46,161 bases of DNA from a virus. Under the pieces are notes generated by a model. That model was not told where the DNA came from, ran no database searches, and saw only the letters and a list, made by a program, of their open reading frames with translations. Both the position numbers and the translations under genes were made by a program. The stretch is from IMG/VR virus record IMGVR_UViG_3300009428_000014, positions 1 to 46,161 of that record. The stretch is one strand, 5' to 3'. Of the stretch, positions 4,954 to 30,586 are shown piece by piece (position 1 is the stretch's first letter; each line of letters starts with the position of its first letter).

Positions 4954-5624
4954 GCGGCTACCCCTTCACTCACTAACTTCTCACAAATCCACGCCTCACC
5001 CACTGGGGTAAACATGGCCTGTGAATAACCTTGGTCTGTTTGGCGTAGCTTTCCAAAGCCTTTATCAATAAACCACTGTTGAAACACTCTGCCGCGTTTA
5101 ATGGCGTGGCTATAAACGTCATGCTCATCCAAAAACTTATTTAGGCGGACGGCTGACAAGTTATGCTTTTGAGCCACTTGGCTTGCATTCATTAACGTGT
5201 CACGCACCACCAGCCGATCGAAAAACTCCACTTTAGGCGCTTGTTGCTCAAGCAACTTAGCTTGGTTAGCGGCGAGTTGCAGTGCTTCTGAAAATGAATG
5301 CGGAATCTGCGAGTAAAGCTTAGAATGCTTTGCTTCCAACTCTTGCCAGCGATCCACCAGCCTCGCGGTAAACTCAGGTGAAAGCTGAGCAACAACGATG
5401 ATGCTATCGCGCTTGCCTTTCTCGCCGGAGAATACATAGTGTTTTGACTTCGAATTTTTGCTTAAGCTGTTGATGTTCTCGAAAACCCCCATTGGGGGAA
5501 GTTGAATTGCCCCATTTTTTGCCAAGCGTTCGATAGACTGCTTTACTTTGTCATGACGAGATCCAACTAGGTTGGAAATCTCTCCACTGGTCATGGTCAA
5601 TTGGTTACCGGTTATTAAGTTCAT
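4950..5624 (-). CDS. ant: Phage antirepressor (Rha-like N-terminus plus ANT/KilAC domain)
   Basis: 224 residues from the ATG at 5624, chosen because AGGAGG lies four bases upstream and because it overlaps the stop of the Arc-like gene as ATGA. The N-terminal part (MTSGEISNLVGSRHDKVKQS) looks like a Rha-type DNA-binding domain. The C-terminal part (MNASQVAQKHNLSAVRLNKF then RVFQQWFIDKG) is a typical ANT/KilAC domain. In P22, Ant inactivates c2 repressors and is held off by Mnt and Arc. The same gene order here suggests the same role, with the cI product at 39.4 kb as the obvious target; that is an inference. Confidence 0.82.
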   Translation of the reverse strand: MNLITGNQLTMTSGEISNLVGSRHDKVKQSIERLAKNGAIQLPPMGVFENINSLSKNSKSKHYVFSGEKGKRDSIIVVAQLSPEFTARLVDRWQELEAKHSKLYSQIPHSFSEALQLAANQAKLLEQQAPKVEFFDRLVVRDTLMNASQVAQKHNLSAVRLNKFLDEHDVYSHAIKRGRVFQQWFIDKGFGKLRQTDQGYSQAMFTPVGEAWICEKLVSEGVAA

Positions 5625-5785
5625 GCTGCCTCCTGATTTTTCCCTTTTAACCCGTATGCTTTTTCTAGCTGGTGACAAACTTCACTGTTCATTGTTCTGT
5701 TACTTAAATCTGCGGCTTTCAATAACAACAATTTTAATTCTGGGCTAAGCCTAAATTTAATCTGCGGGTAATCACGTACTTTCAT
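5621..5785 (-). CDS. Arc-type ribbon-helix-helix repressor
   Basis: 54 residues from the ATG at 5785, preceded by GGAGG five bases upstream; an upstream extension lacks a ribosome site. The sequence (YPQIKFRLSPELKLLLLKAA, then NRTMNSEVCHQLEKAY) matches the Arc/Mnt ribbon-helix-helix fold: a beta strand that contacts DNA followed by two helices. It is the first gene of the antirepressor operon and presumably binds the inverted-repeat operator just upstream, as P22 Arc represses ant. Confidence 0.82.
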   Translation of the reverse strand: MKVRDYPQIKFRLSPELKLLLLKAADLSNRTMNSEVCHQLEKAYGLKGKNQEAA

Positions 5786-5802
5786 ATATTCCTCCAAAGC
5801 GA

Positions 5803-5871
5803 ATGGCGCACGGTGCGACATGCTAAGTATGCGCACGGTGGGGCATTGAAGTCAACCCCACCGTGCGCCAT
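5803..5871. promoter_or_regulatory. Divergent operator/promoter region between the Arc-type genes
   Basis: The core GCGCACGGTG occurs at 5806-5815 and 5831-5840 and, inverted, at 5859-5868. A perfect 13-bp inverted repeat (5831-5843 with 5856-5868) is separated by 12 bp. The first copy also forms a perfect 13-bp inverted pair with 5859-5871. The region is GC-rich and lies between the two divergent ribbon-helix-helix genes, as the P22 mnt/arc operators do. It is the most likely binding site for one or both proteins. Promoter boxes were not clear. Confidence 0.8.
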
Positions 5872-5891
5872 AATATAAAAAAGAGGTGAAT

Positions 5892-6362
5892 ATGCGCGAA
5901 CATCCACAATTAAGATTAAGAGTTGCACCTGAGCTTAAAGAGCAAATAGATCAGTCAGCTAAGATGAACGGTAGGTCGATGAATGCCGACATAGTGCATC
6001 GATTAGAGATGAGTTTTGTTGTAGAGCAAAACCCAGCAGCTGCCAGTTTGTTACATGACGACGCATTGGGAAATTTATTAGCCCCAACACTACCTGCCTC
6101 TATTGCAGGCAAGATTGCTAGGCAAAATACTGATTCTGGTATTGCTTTAGCATCAATTTTTGTCGATGAGATTAACGAGCTGATCAATAGCGCAATTGTT
6201 ATAGGGAAGCGCAAAATAGAGCTAGATACAACAAAACTAACTTGCACAATGCCAGCAACCGATACTGAAATATTCAGTGCATTAACATTAGTTGAAAAAG
6301 TATTTGATGAGGCTGGCTACATTATTGAATTAGTTAACGGGGTGATTACCATATCGTATTAA
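5892..6362 (+). CDS. Mnt/Arc-family repressor with long C-terminal extension
   Basis: 156 residues from the ATG at 5892, preceded by GAGGTG; a GTG two codons earlier is less well placed. Residues 1-45 (HPQLRLRVAPELKEQIDQSA, then NGRSMNADIVHRLEM) are an Arc-type ribbon-helix-helix domain similar to the divergent 54-residue protein. The remaining 110 residues have no recognised domain and may oligomerise or bind a partner; Mnt itself is a short protein (about 80 residues). Divergent orientation from the arc-ant operon over a shared operator argues for the maintenance repressor of this second immunity module. Confidence 0.78.
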   Translation: MREHPQLRLRVAPELKEQIDQSAKMNGRSMNADIVHRLEMSFVVEQNPAAASLLHDDALGNLLAPTLPASIAGKIARQNTDSGIALASIFVDEINELINSAIVIGKRKIELDTTKLTCTMPATDTEIFSALTLVEKVFDEAGYIIELVNGVITISY

Positions 6363-6369
6363 CAAAAAG

Positions 6370-6387
6370 GCCACCTTTCGGTGGCTT
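6370..6387 (-). terminator. Intrinsic terminator, nearly identical to 3992-4011
   Basis: A 6-bp GCCACC / GGTGGC stem with a TTTC loop. Reading leftward it is followed by CTTTTTG, so it mainly ends transcripts from the secreted-protein gene at 6402-6974. In the plus direction the U tract is poor, but it may also slow transcripts from the Mnt-like gene. Confidence 0.75.
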
Positions 6388-6401
6388 ATGCAAACTATAT
6401 T

Positions 6402-6974
6402 TTACAATTTTTCAGATTCCAGAATGATACTTGTACCTTCTAAATGTTTTTTAGCCGCATCATTATCTAAGCGCTCCCGTTCAGAGACGGTTAAACGATA
6501 AGAAATCATGATCGATTTATTCTCATATTGTGGAACAAGCGTTATGCTTAAAGCATTAACATCCCACTGAATCCAAAAAGGCTTGTTTTCAGTTGCAACC
6601 TCAAGTGGATCTTCAGTTTTGGTAGAGTTGCCATACTTCGAGTGAAGTGCATCAATTAAAAAATCTTCTGTTGATTTTGCATCAGCATCATTCAATAAAG
6701 ATTTTGATTTTATAATTACTTGGTACAATCCATTTTGATCAAAATAAAGTATGGCTTCAAATGGTCTTTTTGCCAAATCCACAGGCACTAGAACTAATGC
6801 TTTCAGTGATGATCCAAGCTTACTAAGCTCATCTTCCGTAGTTGGTTTTTCATGTTGTGGAAATAACGCTAATACTTTTTCAACGCTATCACCATACATG
6901 GCTCCTTTCCATAGCTCTTGTGCATTTAAAAAAAATGAACTAAAGCTCAATAGAATAAGAAAAATCACTCTCAT
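6402..6974 (-). CDS. Secreted (periplasmic) protein of unknown function
   Basis: 190 residues. The N-terminus (MRVIFLILLSFSSFFLNAQE) is a clear signal peptide with likely cleavage after NA; no lipobox cysteine follows. The rest is a soluble alpha/beta-like domain with no motif I recognise. AAGGA precedes the start. It sits between K and the immI-like module with its own terminator, so it looks like a moron that could be expressed outside the late programme. A role in altering the lysogen envelope is possible but unsupported by motif. Confidence 0.7.
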   Translation of the reverse strand: MRVIFLILLSFSSFFLNAQELWKGAMYGDSVEKVLALFPQHEKPTTEDELSKLGSSLKALVLVPVDLAKRPFEAILYFDQNGLYQVIIKSKSLLNDADAKSTEDFLIDALHSKYGNSTKTEDPLEVATENKPFWIQWDVNALSITLVPQYENKSIMISYRLTVSERERLDNDAAKKHLEGTSIILESEKL

Positions 6975-7044
6975 ATTATATCCTTATCACACTAAAAATA
7001 TTAACTTTACCACTATGCCAACGACCTAACAGGCTGTAAAGAAC

Positions 7045-7755
7045 TTAATCTTTATCACCTACATGCCTTACAATCATTCGAGTATTACGCTGCCAGTAAC
7101 CACCGTAAACATCATTGCGACTTAAGCGTCCATATAGATGGTGTAAAACTTTTCCATCACCCACATACACAGCGGCGTGATTCACACGCTTACTTTGTAT
7201 TTGCATTAAAAATACATCCCCGACTTGCAATTGGTCATTAACCTCAGCAAATCCAGCTTTAGCAAAATTATCCAAATACAGTTCTTCCTCACCCTCCCAC
7301 CATCCGTCTTTACGTTCAAAGTTTGGCAATATGATATGTTTGGTTTCTTTATACCAGTCTCGTACGCAGCTGTAGCAATCCCATACTCCATGCACAAAAG
7401 GCCGACCTATTAACGGAGGGGCTTCACCGGTTGGTACTATTGAACGCAAATCACCTTCCGGCCAACTCATAATATGCCAAGGTAGCGAACTTGCCTCACA
7501 CATAGCGATATCACGCTGACTAGGTTTACTCGTTGTATCTGGATGACTGTGACAAATACCGATGATATCGCCGCGGTCTTCAGCTGCTGCATATTCTTGG
7601 GCGGATATTTCAAACTGATCGACTTTGTTTACTGCCACATTATTGCATGGCATGTAGTGAGCTTTATTGCCTATGTTGATGATTAATCCACACGCCTCGT
7701 TTGGATAGCAGCTGATTGTATGCTGCTTAAATGCATGTAACAGTATTGGGTGCAT
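7045..7755 (-). CDS. K: Tail tip protein K (JAMM plus NlpC/P60 peptidase)
   Basis: 236 residues with the two gpK domains. The N-terminal Mov34/JAMM metallopeptidase-like domain shows NEACGLI and the metal motif HSHPDTTSKPSQRD. The C-terminal NlpC/P60 domain shows the catalytic cysteine in VWDCYSCVRDWYK and the histidine region VNHAAVYVGDGKVLHH. Such proteins are thought to cut peptidoglycan during DNA entry and to act in tip assembly. It follows L as in lambda. Confidence 0.92.
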   Translation of the reverse strand: MHPILLHAFKQHTISCYPNEACGLIINIGNKAHYMPCNNVAVNKVDQFEISAQEYAAAEDRGDIIGICHSHPDTTSKPSQRDIAMCEASSLPWHIMSWPEGDLRSIVPTGEAPPLIGRPFVHGVWDCYSCVRDWYKETKHIILPNFERKDGWWEGEEELYLDNFAKAGFAEVNDQLQVGDVFLMQIQSKRVNHAAVYVGDGKVLHHLYGRLSRNDVYGGYWQRNTRMIVRHVGDKD

Positions 7756-26467: not shown

Positions 26468-26602
26468 GAAAGTATTTAGTAGTTAATCGCTGATTGATTC
26501 ATTAACGGGGCGCGAACCCGAACTGCGTCATGTCGTTATCTAATAAAGAAAGAGCGACTTCTTTTCGCTGACTGCGTTGACTGGTGAACGGTAGAAAGCA
26601 AA
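26468..26602. other. Gene-free leader region between two terminators
   Basis: About 135 bp without a plausible gene. It contains a short GC-rich patch at 26507-26529 (GGGGCGCGAACCCG). Reading leftward it ends in the lysis-operon terminator, so it could hold the late promoter and Q-utilisation signals, but I could not identify convincing promoter boxes. Confidence 0.3.
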
Positions 26603-26625
26603 AAACCACCGATAAGTGGTGGTTT
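26603..26625 (-). terminator. Intrinsic terminator after the AT-rich three-gene operon
   Basis: An 8-bp stem (AAACCACC / GGTGGTTT) with a 7-nt loop is followed leftward by a short U run. It lies past the end of the cysteine-protease-like gene and isolates that operon from the lysis genes. Confidence 0.7.
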
Positions 26626-26681
26626 GATATAAGCATAGTTTTCACAGCTTGGGAAAATCATAGACGAAATTAAAAAAGTAT

Positions 26682-27107
26682 TCAACTTATATTATTTAAT
26701 ATCTTTAAATAATCACCCTCCAATTTCTCACGTTCTTCTTCATCGAAGTGAGTCATCTTGGTATTGGGAGTATGACTATCATATATATGAAACCTCCAGT
26801 GCCATTCGCTTCCTTTATCACAAAACACCGTTTTACTTGTTGATGAGAATTGATTTGCTGTTATATCAATGTCGTAACCTAAAGCCTTCAACCATACGTG
26901 TCGCTGCTCTTTCTTATGCCGGTTGTACCCATGCACCATTAAAATGTTATCAATGTTTAATTCTTCAACTAGATACTTTGCAAGTAGATATGATGTAAAT
27001 TCACAACAGTTAACGGGAAATCTTTCAAATAAAGTGAATGAATACTGGCACGGTTCAACTTTCAAAAATGCTTTTCTGAACTGTTTTACGTACGAATATA
27101 TTTCCAT
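26682..27107 (-). CDS. Transglutaminase/cysteine-protease-like accessory protein
   Basis: 141 residues. The pattern cysteine (FPVNCCEFTSYLLAKYL), histidine (RHVWLKALGYDIDITANQF) and the aspartates following it resembles the C-H-D triad of transglutaminase-like or papain-fold enzymes. No closer family is recognised and the activity is untested. It starts 12 bp after the LPO_1073-like gene without a clear ribosome site, suggesting coupling. DNA is AT-rich relative to the phage core. Confidence 0.55.
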   Translation of the reverse strand: MEIYSYVKQFRKAFLKVEPCQYSFTLFERFPVNCCEFTSYLLAKYLVEELNIDNILMVHGYNRHKKEQRHVWLKALGYDIDITANQFSSTSKTVFCDKGSEWHWRFHIYDSHTPNTKMTHFDEEEREKLEGDYLKILNNIS

Positions 27108-27119
27108 AGAACATTAGCT

Positions 27120-28004
27120 TCATTCAGGTAAAAAGTGCTTTAGTGGATAATTATTATTAGTTTTTAAATTATAATTACTTAAAGCTATCGCCTTACCAAC
27201 AGGAGTCAATTTCATAGTAGAAACCTGCTTAACTTTACAAAAGGCTTCGAGATCTTCAAATCTTCTAATATTCGCTGATAGATACGAAAAAACCTCTACA
27301 CTACTCATCAAACTTTTATCAAATAAATGAGGATAATATCTCAAAAAAAGGTTACCTAGATTAGTTAATACTGAAGTTTCACTAAACCGTAAACAACCAG
27401 TGTATTCTAGATATTGTAAGGAACTTGAATTCATACCCCAAGAAGAGTTTTCCGGTAAAAATAAAGAAATCATATTAGAAAAATAATTATAGAGCTGATT
27501 AATGCTATTAAAAGATAAGCTTACATCTTGCAGGACAAAGTTCATTGTTATTGCATCAATTTGCTGTTGAGTCATTTTACTGACAACAGTGATTGATTCG
27601 TCCAAAACTATTTGATGAATTGATCTTTCCGTGAGACTAGAGCGGTCAACCAATATTTTTACTAAAATATTCTCTAAGCTGTCGTCTCCAGATTTAGCAT
27701 ACTGCTGTTGCGCTTCATATAATGAAGCTTGCATAGAAGGGGATTTTAAGTTTTCAGTTAAGCTATTAGCATTTTCTTTAAATTTATTTAAAAAATCATT
27801 TAAAAGCTCATTAGCTCTATCAAAAGCGACCTCATATGCATCCCCTCTTAACTTTATAAAGTTATCATTGAATACATTTTGAGCAGTCAATTTAGATAGT
27901 TCAATAATGCTTTCTAAGCTAGGTCCATGAATGTGCATTTCTTTTGCTTGGTAGTTTGTGCTCTCGCTACCGGCGATCATTTCTTGATTAGATCTATTTA
28001 TCAT
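27120..28004 (-). CDS. LPO_1073/Vpar_1526-family-like protein
   Basis: About 294 residues from the ATG at 28004; ATGs at 28010 and 28013 overlap the upstream gene and are equally possible. The N-terminal ESTNYQAKEMHIHGPS, the segment KLRGDAYEVAFDRANELLND and the region YEAQQQYAKSGDDSLENILV resemble the LPO_1073/Vpar_1526 family, recalled by pattern and without a search. Function is unestablished. It is in an AT-rich operon with a small membrane protein upstream and a cysteine-protease-like protein downstream, typical of prophage accessory or defence cargo. Confidence 0.62.
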   Translation of the reverse strand: MINRSNQEMIAGSESTNYQAKEMHIHGPSLESIIELSKLTAQNVFNDNFIKLRGDAYEVAFDRANELLNDFLNKFKENANSLTENLKSPSMQASLYEAQQQYAKSGDDSLENILVKILVDRSSLTERSIHQIVLDESITVVSKMTQQQIDAITMNFVLQDVSLSFNSINQLYNYFSNMISLFLPENSSWGMNSSSLQYLEYTGCLRFSETSVLTNLGNLFLRYYPHLFDKSLMSSVEVFSYLSANIRRFEDLEAFCKVKQVSTMKLTPVGKAIALSNYNLKTNNNYPLKHFLPE

Positions 28005-28239
28005 TATCATCATCTCTAACAGAATGAGCAGCGCGATGCTCATTATTGATAATTATTGAGCTGCCAGATTGATACACAGTAGATTTATCACCTGTTACAA
28101 CCTTTTGAGAGATCACGGGTTGAGCCTGAACTTTTCTTTTTTGATAGAAATGCCTCCATACCCCCCCCACAATCCACAGTCCAGCTCCAGAAAAAAGTGT
28201 GGTAAATATCAATTGATGTTCTGAAATAAATGCAATCAT
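27994..28239 (-). CDS. Small membrane-anchored protein of the accessory operon
   Basis: 81 residues: one N-terminal transmembrane helix (LIFTTLFSGAGLWIVGGVW), a basic stretch, then a tail with YQSGSSIIINNE and an acidic end. A run of eight G residues encodes part of the helix (around 28161-28168). It overlaps the start of the LPO_1073-like gene, so both are co-translated. It may anchor or regulate that protein. Confidence 0.55.
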   Translation of the reverse strand: MIAFISEHQLIFTTLFSGAGLWIVGGVWRHFYQKRKVQAQPVISQKVVTGDKSTVYQSGSSIIINNEHRAAHSVRDDDNDK

Positions 28240-28269
28240 TTTTTACCTAAGAGTATGAACCATAGCTAC

Positions 28270-28297
28270 ATACTACCTTTATTTATACCTTAAACAA
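28270..28297 (-). promoter_or_regulatory. Putative promoter of the three-gene accessory operon
   Basis: Reading leftward, TTGTTT and TAGTAT are separated by 16 bp, about 30 bp upstream of the small membrane protein start. The surrounding DNA is AT-rich. It would allow expression in the lysogen. Confidence 0.45.
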
Positions 28298-28560
28298 TAA
28301 TTGAAATTAGGAAGTTAGATTTTGAACCACATACTCATACGTGAGAGCTATTTATCAACTTAGCGTGTAGTGGAATAGGCCGAGTATCCATTAAAAAATG
28401 CTACAAACAATATTGTTCAAAATCGATAAAATATCTTCCTGTTTGGAAGATTCACAAAATAGCTAAAACTATATAAGTAACAGTAACTTTAATTGTTTAG
28501 AAAGAAATTGCCGTCTTGGCAGTGTCTTGGTTGAGTAATTGAGCTTAGTAAATTTTTCTA
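28298..28560. other. Gene-free segment with integrase-end-like sequence
   Basis: No gene is seen in this AT-rich gap. At 28497-28544 the minus strand reads like a short degenerate copy of the end of the integrase gene: LNQDTAKTAISF then stop, compared with FNQDSTETGNNL then stop for the real gene. This may be an old recombination scar or an attachment-type repeat. Confidence 0.35.
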
Positions 28561-28562
28561 TG

Positions 28563-28589
28563 AAAAGAGAGCCCTTTGGAGAGCTCTTT
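28563..28589 (-). terminator. Terminator after the XRE-ImmA gene
   Basis: An interrupted stem (AAAGAG / CTCTTT with inner pairs) followed leftward by a short U run lies about 55 bp past the end of the XRE-ImmA gene. Confidence 0.5.
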
Positions 28590-28643
28590 GTATTTAGGGT
28601 GAATCAATTTATTGATGTTCTCATTAGCCTTAAAAGTCTAGTG

Positions 28644-29846
28644 TTATCTTCCGAGTTCAAAAATGTTGTTTGACGTCCCAACTATTTTCTTATCACTTGT
28701 ACTTTTAACTACTGATTTTGTTCTGAATTGTAACAAATTATCATTTGCCATAGAATCATCAAAAAAACCTTTGGGTAAGCAACACAAGCTCTCAACTAAA
28801 CTAGCTGGCAGACCTAGCTGATCAAGTAAATCATTTTTATTTATTCCAGCGGCTATAAGCATATTAGCAGCCCTAGATAAAAGTCGAGGAGACTCGGGGA
28901 TAAGCTGGTCATCATAAGGCTCCTTCAACCTCCAACCTTTCGAGGAAAGATTTTTATATAAGTTAGCTTTTTGGAGATCATTAATTAGATCAAGCTGGTG
29001 AGCTCTAAATATCATTGCTGCAATTGATACTTTCCAGCGAGGTTTCAGAGTTAGAAACGTCTCAAGTGTAGGTCTTCGAATATCTTTAGCAAATGATTCA
29101 GCTGGCATAAGTAATGAACCAGCAAATAAATCTGCTTGTCGCTCAATTTCTTTATGATTAGTACTATTAAGTGATTCAATTAATATGTTTTTATGCAGAA
29201 TCATGTGACCTAATTCATGAGCTAAATCGAAACGACTACGAATAGCGTTCTGTTTATCAGAGGAAAGTAATATATATGCTCGATTGAAACCATGCTGCCA
29301 GTTAGACAAACCGTCAAGCTTGTCAAAGCCAATTTCACTACGAGCACAAACAATACCTGCACTTTCAACTGCAAGTGTTAAATCTTTTATTGGACCAGTT
29401 CCCAAGTTCATATTTACTCTAAAATCTTGAGCAATTAACTCAATATCTATATCAGAGAGGGAATTGAACTGTTTCGACGAATTTGGAAGGTTAATTGCTG
29501 GCCAATCAACATATTTTTGAAAAACATTAGAAAGCTCAATTAACCAATTTAGCTTTGTTTTAGTTGCAATTCTTCCTGTTTTTGTAGCAGAAGAAAGAGA
29601 ACGATAAAAATATGGGGTATGATCTAATGTTGTTGATTCTCTCAAAAACCAATGTGTTGATTGCCCTAAAGAAGTCGCCAATGATTGGAGCTTATCCTCT
29701 TGAGGGTTTTGACTACCGTTTTCCCATTGAGTAACAGTCGCACCAGATACATTTACGAGAGTAGCCAGCGCAACCTTAGTTAAACCAAGCGCTTCTCTAG
29801 CTTGAGTTAATCTAAATGATTGAAATCCACCTACACCTGTTTTCAT
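28644..29846 (-). CDS. XRE-family regulator fused to ImmA/IrrE metallopeptidase
   Basis: 400 residues. An N-terminal helix-turn-helix (LTQAREALGLTKVALATLVN, then ATVTQWENGSQNPQEDKL) is followed by an ImmA/IrrE-type zinc peptidase with the HELGH motif (FDLAHELGHMILH) and the downstream glutamate region EIERQADLFAGSLLMP. Such fusions act as self-controlled repressors that respond to stress by cleavage, or as antitoxins. It is 3 bp from the end of an unrecognised partner gene, forming a two-gene operon with its own promoter and terminator. Confidence 0.85.
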   Translation of the reverse strand: MKTGVGGFQSFRLTQAREALGLTKVALATLVNVSGATVTQWENGSQNPQEDKLQSLATSLGQSTHWFLRESTTLDHTPYFYRSLSSATKTGRIATKTKLNWLIELSNVFQKYVDWPAINLPNSSKQFNSLSDIDIELIAQDFRVNMNLGTGPIKDLTLAVESAGIVCARSEIGFDKLDGLSNWQHGFNRAYILLSSDKQNAIRSRFDLAHELGHMILHKNILIESLNSTNHKEIERQADLFAGSLLMPAESFAKDIRRPTLETFLTLKPRWKVSIAAMIFRAHQLDLINDLQKANLYKNLSSKGWRLKEPYDDQLIPESPRLLSRAANMLIAAGINKNDLLDQLGLPASLVESLCCLPKGFFDDSMANDNLLQFRTKSVVKSTSDKKIVGTSNNIFELGR

Positions 29847-29849
29847 TAT

Positions 29850-30497
29850 TTATTCACCATTACTAGTTTTATTTTCAAACTGTTCAAGAGCAACTTTAAG
29901 AGTTGGCCAAGCTAAGTCGCTCTCATACATTTCTTCAGAATTGTACATCTCTAACAGCTCATTAAAATGAAGCAGCGCATGGTAGTCTTTCCAGTTGGAA
30001 AATGGAACCGCTACAAAAATTTCTTGGGGAGAGCTCTGTTGTTCATCCTTAATTTTGGGGTGAACTATCATTACAACAATGTGTAGTTTTTGCTCCAACT
30101 CTAGTTGTTTAGAGTCAAAGAAATCAAGCTGTAAAGGTTCAAGTGCCTTATTTCCCATAGAGAGTAATTTTCTATGTGCTGCGTCACGAACTTTAGCACC
30201 TGAACTATTCACTTCTATGTGGGTCAATATGATGTTATTCGTCTCGATGGAAACGTAATGCTCACCTTTGGGGATTGTATAGTTTATTTGACCATTGACA
30301 GCAGTAAATGCCTCATCAATGAGATAGCGTCTCATTTGCGATCTGAGTCTTGGTTTCGGAGATAGCAGTAGGTTTTCTTCTAAAAAATTCTCAGTCACAC
30401 CATATTTAATAAGTATTTGGGCTTCTAAATCTTGAAATATTTCCTTCTCAATATTACCCACAATATAGGAATAAAGTTTTTTTTGAAGATCGTCCAT
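29850..30497 (-). CDS. Unrecognised partner of the XRE-ImmA protein
   Basis: 215 residues from the ATG at 30497, preceded by GGGT; a GTG further up is less likely. The protein looks soluble and mixed alpha/beta, with a basic early region (KPRLRSQMRRYLIDEAF) and no motif I can name. As the first gene of a tight two-gene operon with an XRE-ImmA fusion it could be a toxin, effector or sensor controlled by the second gene. That role is inferred from arrangement only. Confidence 0.55.
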   Translation of the reverse strand: MDDLQKKLYSYIVGNIEKEIFQDLEAQILIKYGVTENFLEENLLLSPKPRLRSQMRRYLIDEAFTAVNGQINYTIPKGEHYVSIETNNIILTHIEVNSSGAKVRDAAHRKLLSMGNKALEPLQLDFFDSKQLELEQKLHIVVMIVHPKIKDEQQSSPQEIFVAVPFSNWKDYHALLHFNELLEMYNSEEMYESDLAWPTLKVALEQFENKTSNGE

Positions 30498-30523
30498 TGC
30501 ATTTACCCTCGACACACACATTT

Positions 30524-30529
30524 AGTATA
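30524..30529 (-). promoter_or_regulatory. Putative -10 box of the XRE-ImmA operon
   Basis: TATACT on the minus strand about 27 bp before the start of the partner gene, with GGC directly upstream; a convincing -35 was not found. It lies in a gap of about 100 bp between the early genes and this operon. Confidence 0.35.
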
Positions 30530-30586
30530 GCCGAATTATACATGTAAATCTTAAGTTATAAAGCTTTTACTTTTAGAAACACCACC

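Follow-up and report, generated by a model that had tools for sequence, protein, structure and literature searches.

Bacterial amyloid signalling has been described as pairs of an NLR and a Bell effector that carry BASS motifs, found mainly in multicellular bacteria (PMC7889193, PMC8086366). In the BASS architecture, the receptor carries the motif N-terminally and the adjacent TM-bearing effector carries it C-terminally (PMC7889193), and the core of a further motif, the RHIM, is G-[IV]-Q-[IV]-G (PMC7885112). Here, we describe a prophage locus in which a small membrane protein and a protein of the LPO_1073 family carry a similar motif in these two positions. The two genes are a probable minimal sensor-and-killer defence pair, because they share the motif in the layout of a prion-like switch and because relatives of the pair lie beside anti-phage systems.

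Gene content of the AT-rich slot

The window (the whole stretch of DNA analysed, 46,161 nt) is a contig of a temperate tailed phage with a terminase, an endolysin, an integrase, a DnaC-like loader and a CI-like repressor. The original prediction placed an AT-rich unit of three coupled genes in an accessory slot of a prophage that separates the early genes from lysis, and such a slot, holding the membrane protein and its helical partner, is supported. The slot is indeed AT-rich (34.5% GC versus 41.5% for the whole window), but its extent had been understated, as it runs from about 26600 to 30530 and holds two units, RosmerTA upstream (28644-30521) and the three-gene unit downstream. The three genes also differ from the phage core in base composition, as had been claimed, with a GC content (33.0% versus 41.5%) that was equally low in only 5 of 445 windows of the same size. 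The three minus-strand ORFs encode 81, 294-307 and 141 aa, the second starting at 28004 or 28043 (Table 1). Their predicted coupling was borne out: read from its likely start, the ATG at 28004, LPO_1073 shares 11 nt with the end of gene 1, and its stop codon lies 12 nt before the start of gene 3. The predicted terminator corresponds to a hairpin at 26625-26603. A promoter of its own, however, could not be confirmed for the unit: the promoter scan found no sigma-70-like site directly upstream of 28239 on the minus strand, and promoter-like sites were fewer overall than in shuffled sequence.

Table 1. Features of the two gene units and of the shared motif, listed along the minus strand
Feature	Position	Strand	Basis
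RmrT toxin of RosmerTA, neighbour	29850..30521	-	PADLOC RmrT, E 2.1e-46
RmrA, HTH + ImmA/IrrE protease antitoxin of RosmerTA, neighbour	28644..29846	-	PADLOC RmrA, E 4.4e-142
Terminator-like hairpin that ends the upstream (RosmerTA) operon, ahead of the pair	28568..28587	-	hairpin scan
Gene 1, 81-aa membrane protein, one predicted TM and polar C-terminal tail	27994..28239	-	ORF, hydropathy
Predicted TM segment of gene 1, about residues 10-28	28156..28212	-	Kyte-Doolittle 1.61
Shared motif, gene 1 tail: QKVVTGDKSTVYQSGSSIIIN	28045..28107	-	own-pair score 37, shuffle mean 19.7, p=0.0025
Gene 2, LPO_1073/Vpar_1526 family, 294 aa from likely start (longest ORF from 28043)	27120..28004	-	NCBIfam NF045477
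Shared motif, gene 2 N-terminus: QEMIAGSESTNYQAKEMHIHG	27924..27986	-	motif scoring; low-pLDDT region
Gene 3, 141-aa papain/transglutaminase-like Cys-His-Asp enzyme candidate	26682..27107	-	invariant residues, AF2 fold match
Intrinsic-terminator-like hairpin, 8-bp stem, closes three-gene unit	26603..26625	-	hairpin scan

Gene 2 certainly belongs to the LPO_1073 family, matching NF045477 over residues 53-304 with 206.8 bits (curated cut-off, 45 bits). Its AF2 model (pLDDT 72.6) is mostly helical beyond residues 1-27, the only stretch below 50, and the large helical LPO_1073-like protein of the original prediction is recovered by both the family match and the modelled helices. No recognisable NTPase was found in LPO_1073, the window protein being free of NB-ARC and NACHT domains, and no PDB or BFVD (viral model) fold matched it below E 0.001. 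Two sequence-profile matches in the PDB, to a spore germination protein (0.0018) and Alba (0.016), covered about 40 residues each and were taken as chance. The NF045477 model bears no functional name, no literature naming the LPO_1073/Vpar_1526 family was found, and a PADLOC search of genes 1-3 matched no known defence profile.

The product of gene 1 has a TM segment that barely passes the hydropathy threshold, and the corresponding segments of two relatives (L025 and L026) fall below it. Relatives are 58-102 aa long, their polar tail being preceded by one or two hydrophobic segments; a one-TM class comprises the window, L025-L028, L031 and L069-L071, many of whose members carry an NKEW-FSG signature, and a two-segment class comprises E. 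coli, L011, L021, L022, L029, L038 and L040. Neither gene 1 nor its relatives gave a Pfam match above cut-off. The NKEW-FSG TM domain also heads larger proteins of 188-204 aa (plus strand; L072, 2989-3603; L075, 2998-3564; L076, 2989-3564), that of L075 having an SNVQIGK stretch beyond the TM segment.

Gene 3 represents a family of about 120-160 aa with the blocks FPxGCCGDxS, HAWLE and IDITADQF. Its C35, H70 and D81 are invariant across eight aligned homologues, in keeping with the Cys-His-Asp enzyme candidate predicted earlier. The best PDB fold match of its AF2 model (pLDDT 85.7) was the SseI catalytic domain (prob 0.85, E 0.035, TM-score 0.38), followed by vasohibins, and on this modelled fold gene 3 is a candidate papain/transglutaminase-like cysteine enzyme.

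Conserved pairing and a shared motif

LPO_1073 homologues were gathered from viral contigs, plasmids, phages, genome contigs and sampled Pseudomonadota genomes. In all 21 distinct readable LPO_1073 loci, an ORF for a 58-102-aa membrane protein lies immediately upstream on the same strand, usually overlapping or separated by a few nucleotides. These loci range from P2-like prophages of E. coli to a gut phage; locus L001 matches the window base for base over 9,958 nt, and L003 and L044 come from the same viral contig, so these were not treated as independent evidence. The family is rare, being present in three of 398 genomes of a phylum sample, including the genome at the centre of that sample, and the E. 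coli pair was found in 6 of 5,426 complete E. coli genomes at 80% coverage. Searches by tblastn with the window LPO_1073 protein against phages (1e-5) and with that of L026 against plasmids and phages (1e-6) returned nothing. The association between LPO_1073 and a small TM partner appears to be new.

The third gene does not share this distribution. No ORF in 23 LPO_1073 locus records matched the gene-3 profile, and none in 10 gene-3 locus records matched the LPO_1073 profile. The proposal that the three genes act as one unit was therefore rejected, and the co-occurrence of the trio was looked for in these records and found to be absent: only genes 1 and 2 travel together, and only these two form a system. 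Because it is missing from all other LPO_1073 loci searched, gene 3 is probably separate accessory cargo that shares the transcription unit of the pair in the window. Its homologues occur singly, in unrelated phage slots. One of them, in a Vibrio anguillarum phage (L020, 3896-6372, plus strand), follows a KAP-type NTPase with a match to PADLOC PDC-S20, another possible enzyme-NTPase pair.

The strongest clue to the relationship between genes 1 and 2, overlooked in the original prediction, is a motif common to the tail of the former and the start of the latter. In the window, the gene 1 tail reads SQKVVTGDKSTVYQS and the LPO_1073 N-terminus NQEMIAGSESTNYQA; the corresponding sequences are QVQKGGIGSKNIQ and QIQKGGIGSTNIQ in L028, and QTVSDSSVGVQAGRDVNI and QSTEGGSAAIQAGRDINI in L021. 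Among the first 18 LPO_1073 pairs scored, 17 reached p<=0.005 against shuffled N-termini, the exception being L030. Tails scored a mean of 48.1 against their own N-terminus (17 pairs) versus 16.9, and at most 32, against other 34-aa stretches of the same LPO_1073 protein. A [IVLM]Q[AVI]G pattern was present in 12 of the 18 tails and in 8 of the 18 N-termini, where 0.08 would be expected. This relaxed form alone is enriched, the exact RHIM core G[IV]Q[IV]G being present in none of the 18 tails or 18 N-termini, and a search of the PDB with the motif profile matched neither RHIM nor any other solved amyloid.

The motif is also partner specific in statistical terms. Over 22 pairs, the own-pair mean was 50.7, compared with 33.7 for non-cognate combinations, and none of 50,000 permutations reached the observed mean. 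Swapping in the partner of the nearest relative by TM sequence lowered the score by a mean of 7.1 (Wilcoxon p=0.006, with some reciprocal pairs counted twice), and the own partner, which is not always the top scorer, had a median rank of 2 of 22 (rank 5 for the window). Short-term co-variation was not seen in E. coli, where tails vary (STAVQARGD versus SIGVQAGGD) and the LPO_1073 N-terminus is constant; these tail variants occur in L033-L037, which are E. coli-type P2-like prophages.

Partner exchange and defence neighbourhood

The small membrane protein is also found with partners other than LPO_1073. In G184 (locus L067), a genome with no LPO_1073 match that was found by the small-protein profile, a small protein whose TM part resembles those of L031 and L028 carries the motif NFQVGGENSTNYQSKGD, and its partner, an unrelated protein of 461 aa, carries the near-identical motif NFQVGGDNATNYQAAGD (score 80, shuffle mean 22); the same small-protein motif scored at most 46 against any LPO_1073 N-terminus. 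The gene pair sits between consecutive attC-like repeats of an integron-type array. As the 461-aa protein has no known family, this TM and 461-aa cassette (5503-7078, minus strand) is a candidate new two-gene system. On a viral contig (L077, 2986-5793, plus strand; also L078), a 59-aa TM protein, KQNQKIGNNSKGIQVGGNI, is followed by an 871-aa protein that starts KQNQKVGDNSTAIQVNGDL and contains NB-ARC (E 1.5e-6) and TPR repeats, and the TM tail matches the N-terminus of this protein with a score of 67 (z 9.8). In L073 (2989-5099, plus strand), an NB-ARC protein likewise follows a related TM protein; no matching N-terminal motif was found at the start taken. A bolder reading, to which we give slightly less than an even chance, is that a membrane effector of 60-100 aa with a templating tail forms a minimal mobile prion-like immune switch. 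Evolution would have joined this effector to three or more unrelated receptors (LPO_1073, an NB-ARC/TPR NLR and the 461-aa protein), and in unicellular bacteria the switch would travel on prophages, integron cassettes and conjugative elements.

The genomic association of the pair with defence systems is strong, and the defence context foreseen for the membrane protein and its helical partner was encountered as RosmerTA, Thoeris, Rst_3HP, type I RM and the gpA-gpQ hotspot. ThsA and ThsB of Thoeris adjoin the pair in L028, hsdM/hsdS (type I RM) lies beside it in L059, and the pair is located in an integron with IntI (E 1.7e-126) in L056 and between a relaxase and TraG in L022. In E. coli, the pair lies between gpA and gpQ of a P2-like prophage and adjoins Hp1-Hp3 (PADLOC), which we take, by name, to be Rst_3HP. 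Rst_3HP is mostly prophage-borne (PMC9090908), and the gpA-gpQ slot of P2 is a hotspot carrying antiviral systems (PMC9122126); the L011 pair occupies this slot in a different P2-like phage. The window pair adjoins RosmerTA, identified by an RmrA HTH-ImmA antitoxin beside RmrT; RosmerTA is a toxin-antitoxin defence family, and the RmrT of a Gordonia phage depolarises membranes (PMC10440598). Several other loci had no known defence system nearby within the scanned region. Two further arrangements were observed: a prophage defence cluster of a 372-aa protein, the LPO_1073 pair, ThsB and ThsA (L028, 1554-6528, plus strand), and a 326-aa protein with a partial-length PADLOC ApeA match (E 1.7e-9) upstream of the pair in L038 (1470-2450, plus strand).

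Possible mechanism and relation to known systems

The most economical reading of these data is a receptor-effector pair that signals through a homotypic, probably amyloid-like motif. Specifically, we consider it moderately likely that genes 1 and 2 constitute a two-component, prophage-borne anti-phage suicide switch, in which LPO_1073 would be the sensor or receptor, the 81-aa membrane protein the effector, and homotypic contact of the short beta-prone motif the link between them. A phage cue would cause LPO_1073 to oligomerise, and the clustered N-terminal motifs, by analogy with BASS and HET-S/NWD2, could nucleate a cross-beta, amyloid-like assembly. This assembly would recruit the tail motifs of the membrane protein, a contact suggested by the statistical match of the motifs, and the clustered TM helices might then disrupt the inner membrane, so that the infected cell dies. 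The defence role is suggested by sequence and gene neighbourhood. A sensing role for LPO_1073 is proposed from its position and by analogy, because the protein showed neither an NTPase nor a fold match in the PDB or among viral models. As the putative outcome, we favour abortive infection over superinfection exclusion.

Toxin-antitoxin pairs, too, typically have adjacent, overlapping genes, and in a defence pair the shared motif could simply make a conventional small heteromeric beta contact, such as a beta-arch or solenoid cap, which would hold LPO_1073 at the membrane without building a templated polymer; LPO_1073 might then be the effector or an antitoxin-like restraint on the membrane protein. 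Motif co-variation speaks for association and not for polymerisation, and the absence of the exact RHIM core is in line with such a contact. However, possession of the same motif by both partners is a signature of homotypic assembly, and the NB-ARC/TPR partner of related TM proteins recalls amyloid signalosomes; we regard a non-polymer contact as unlikely, although it deserves serious weight.

Proteases are part of some bacterial death systems, and the 12-nt spacing, the single terminator past gene 3, the invariant Cys-His-Asp residues and the papain/transglutaminase-like model would all suit a three-gene system in which the enzyme, as a protease or transglutaminase, activates the pair or acts downstream of it as an executioner, in a caspase-like manner. 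This is improbable given the empty reciprocal profile searches and the solitary homologues of gene 3 in unrelated phage slots. Exclusion factors, for their part, are commonly small membrane proteins, and the prophage location close to the lysis genes would fit a membrane protein that stops the incoming DNA of related phages at the envelope, with LPO_1073 as its regulator or chaperone. Superinfection exclusion of this kind is very unlikely, however, as pairs were found outside prophages too (integron cassettes, a conjugative element, a type I RM locus), and related TM proteins have non-LPO_1073 partners, among them an NB-ARC protein.

Descriptions of bacterial amyloid immune signalling have centred on NLRs and come mostly from multicellular bacteria. 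If the suicide switch proposed here is correct, a two-gene version of 1.2 kb exists in prophages of tractable bacteria, including E. coli, and would make prion-like immunity testable against phages; the LPO_1073 family would gain a function, and the receptor of the switch would be exchangeable while the membrane killer and the logic of the motif persist.

Compared with its neighbours RosmerTA (in the window) and Rst_3HP (in the E. coli P2 slot), the pair forms a separate gene unit, and no sequence relation to either was found. It resembles BASS systems in its adjacent or overlapping genes, in the similar motif at the receptor N-terminus and effector C-terminus in the window, and in the NB-ARC/TPR (bacterial NLR) partner of its relative in L077. 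It differs from them in that the window receptor is an LPO_1073 protein and not an NLR (an NB-ARC/NACHT STAND NTPase was found as motif-bearing partner only in L077), in that the effector is a one- or two-TM protein of 58-102 aa, and in its occurrence in phages, integrons and unicellular Proteobacteria. With the fungal HET-S/NWD2 and HELLP/PNT1 systems and the mammalian RHIM, it shares an N-terminal receptor motif and a membrane-targeting effector, the templating being presumed here, as well as the [IVLM]-Q-[AVI]-G core of most tails; it differs from this group in that the exact RHIM core is never present, no HeLo or HELL domain was found, and its amyloid character is putative. We do not class the pair as a BASS or HET-S member, because the window has no NLR receptor and the amyloid property is putative; by analogy, it would nonetheless operate like a BASS or HET-S system in which LPO_1073 replaces the NLR.
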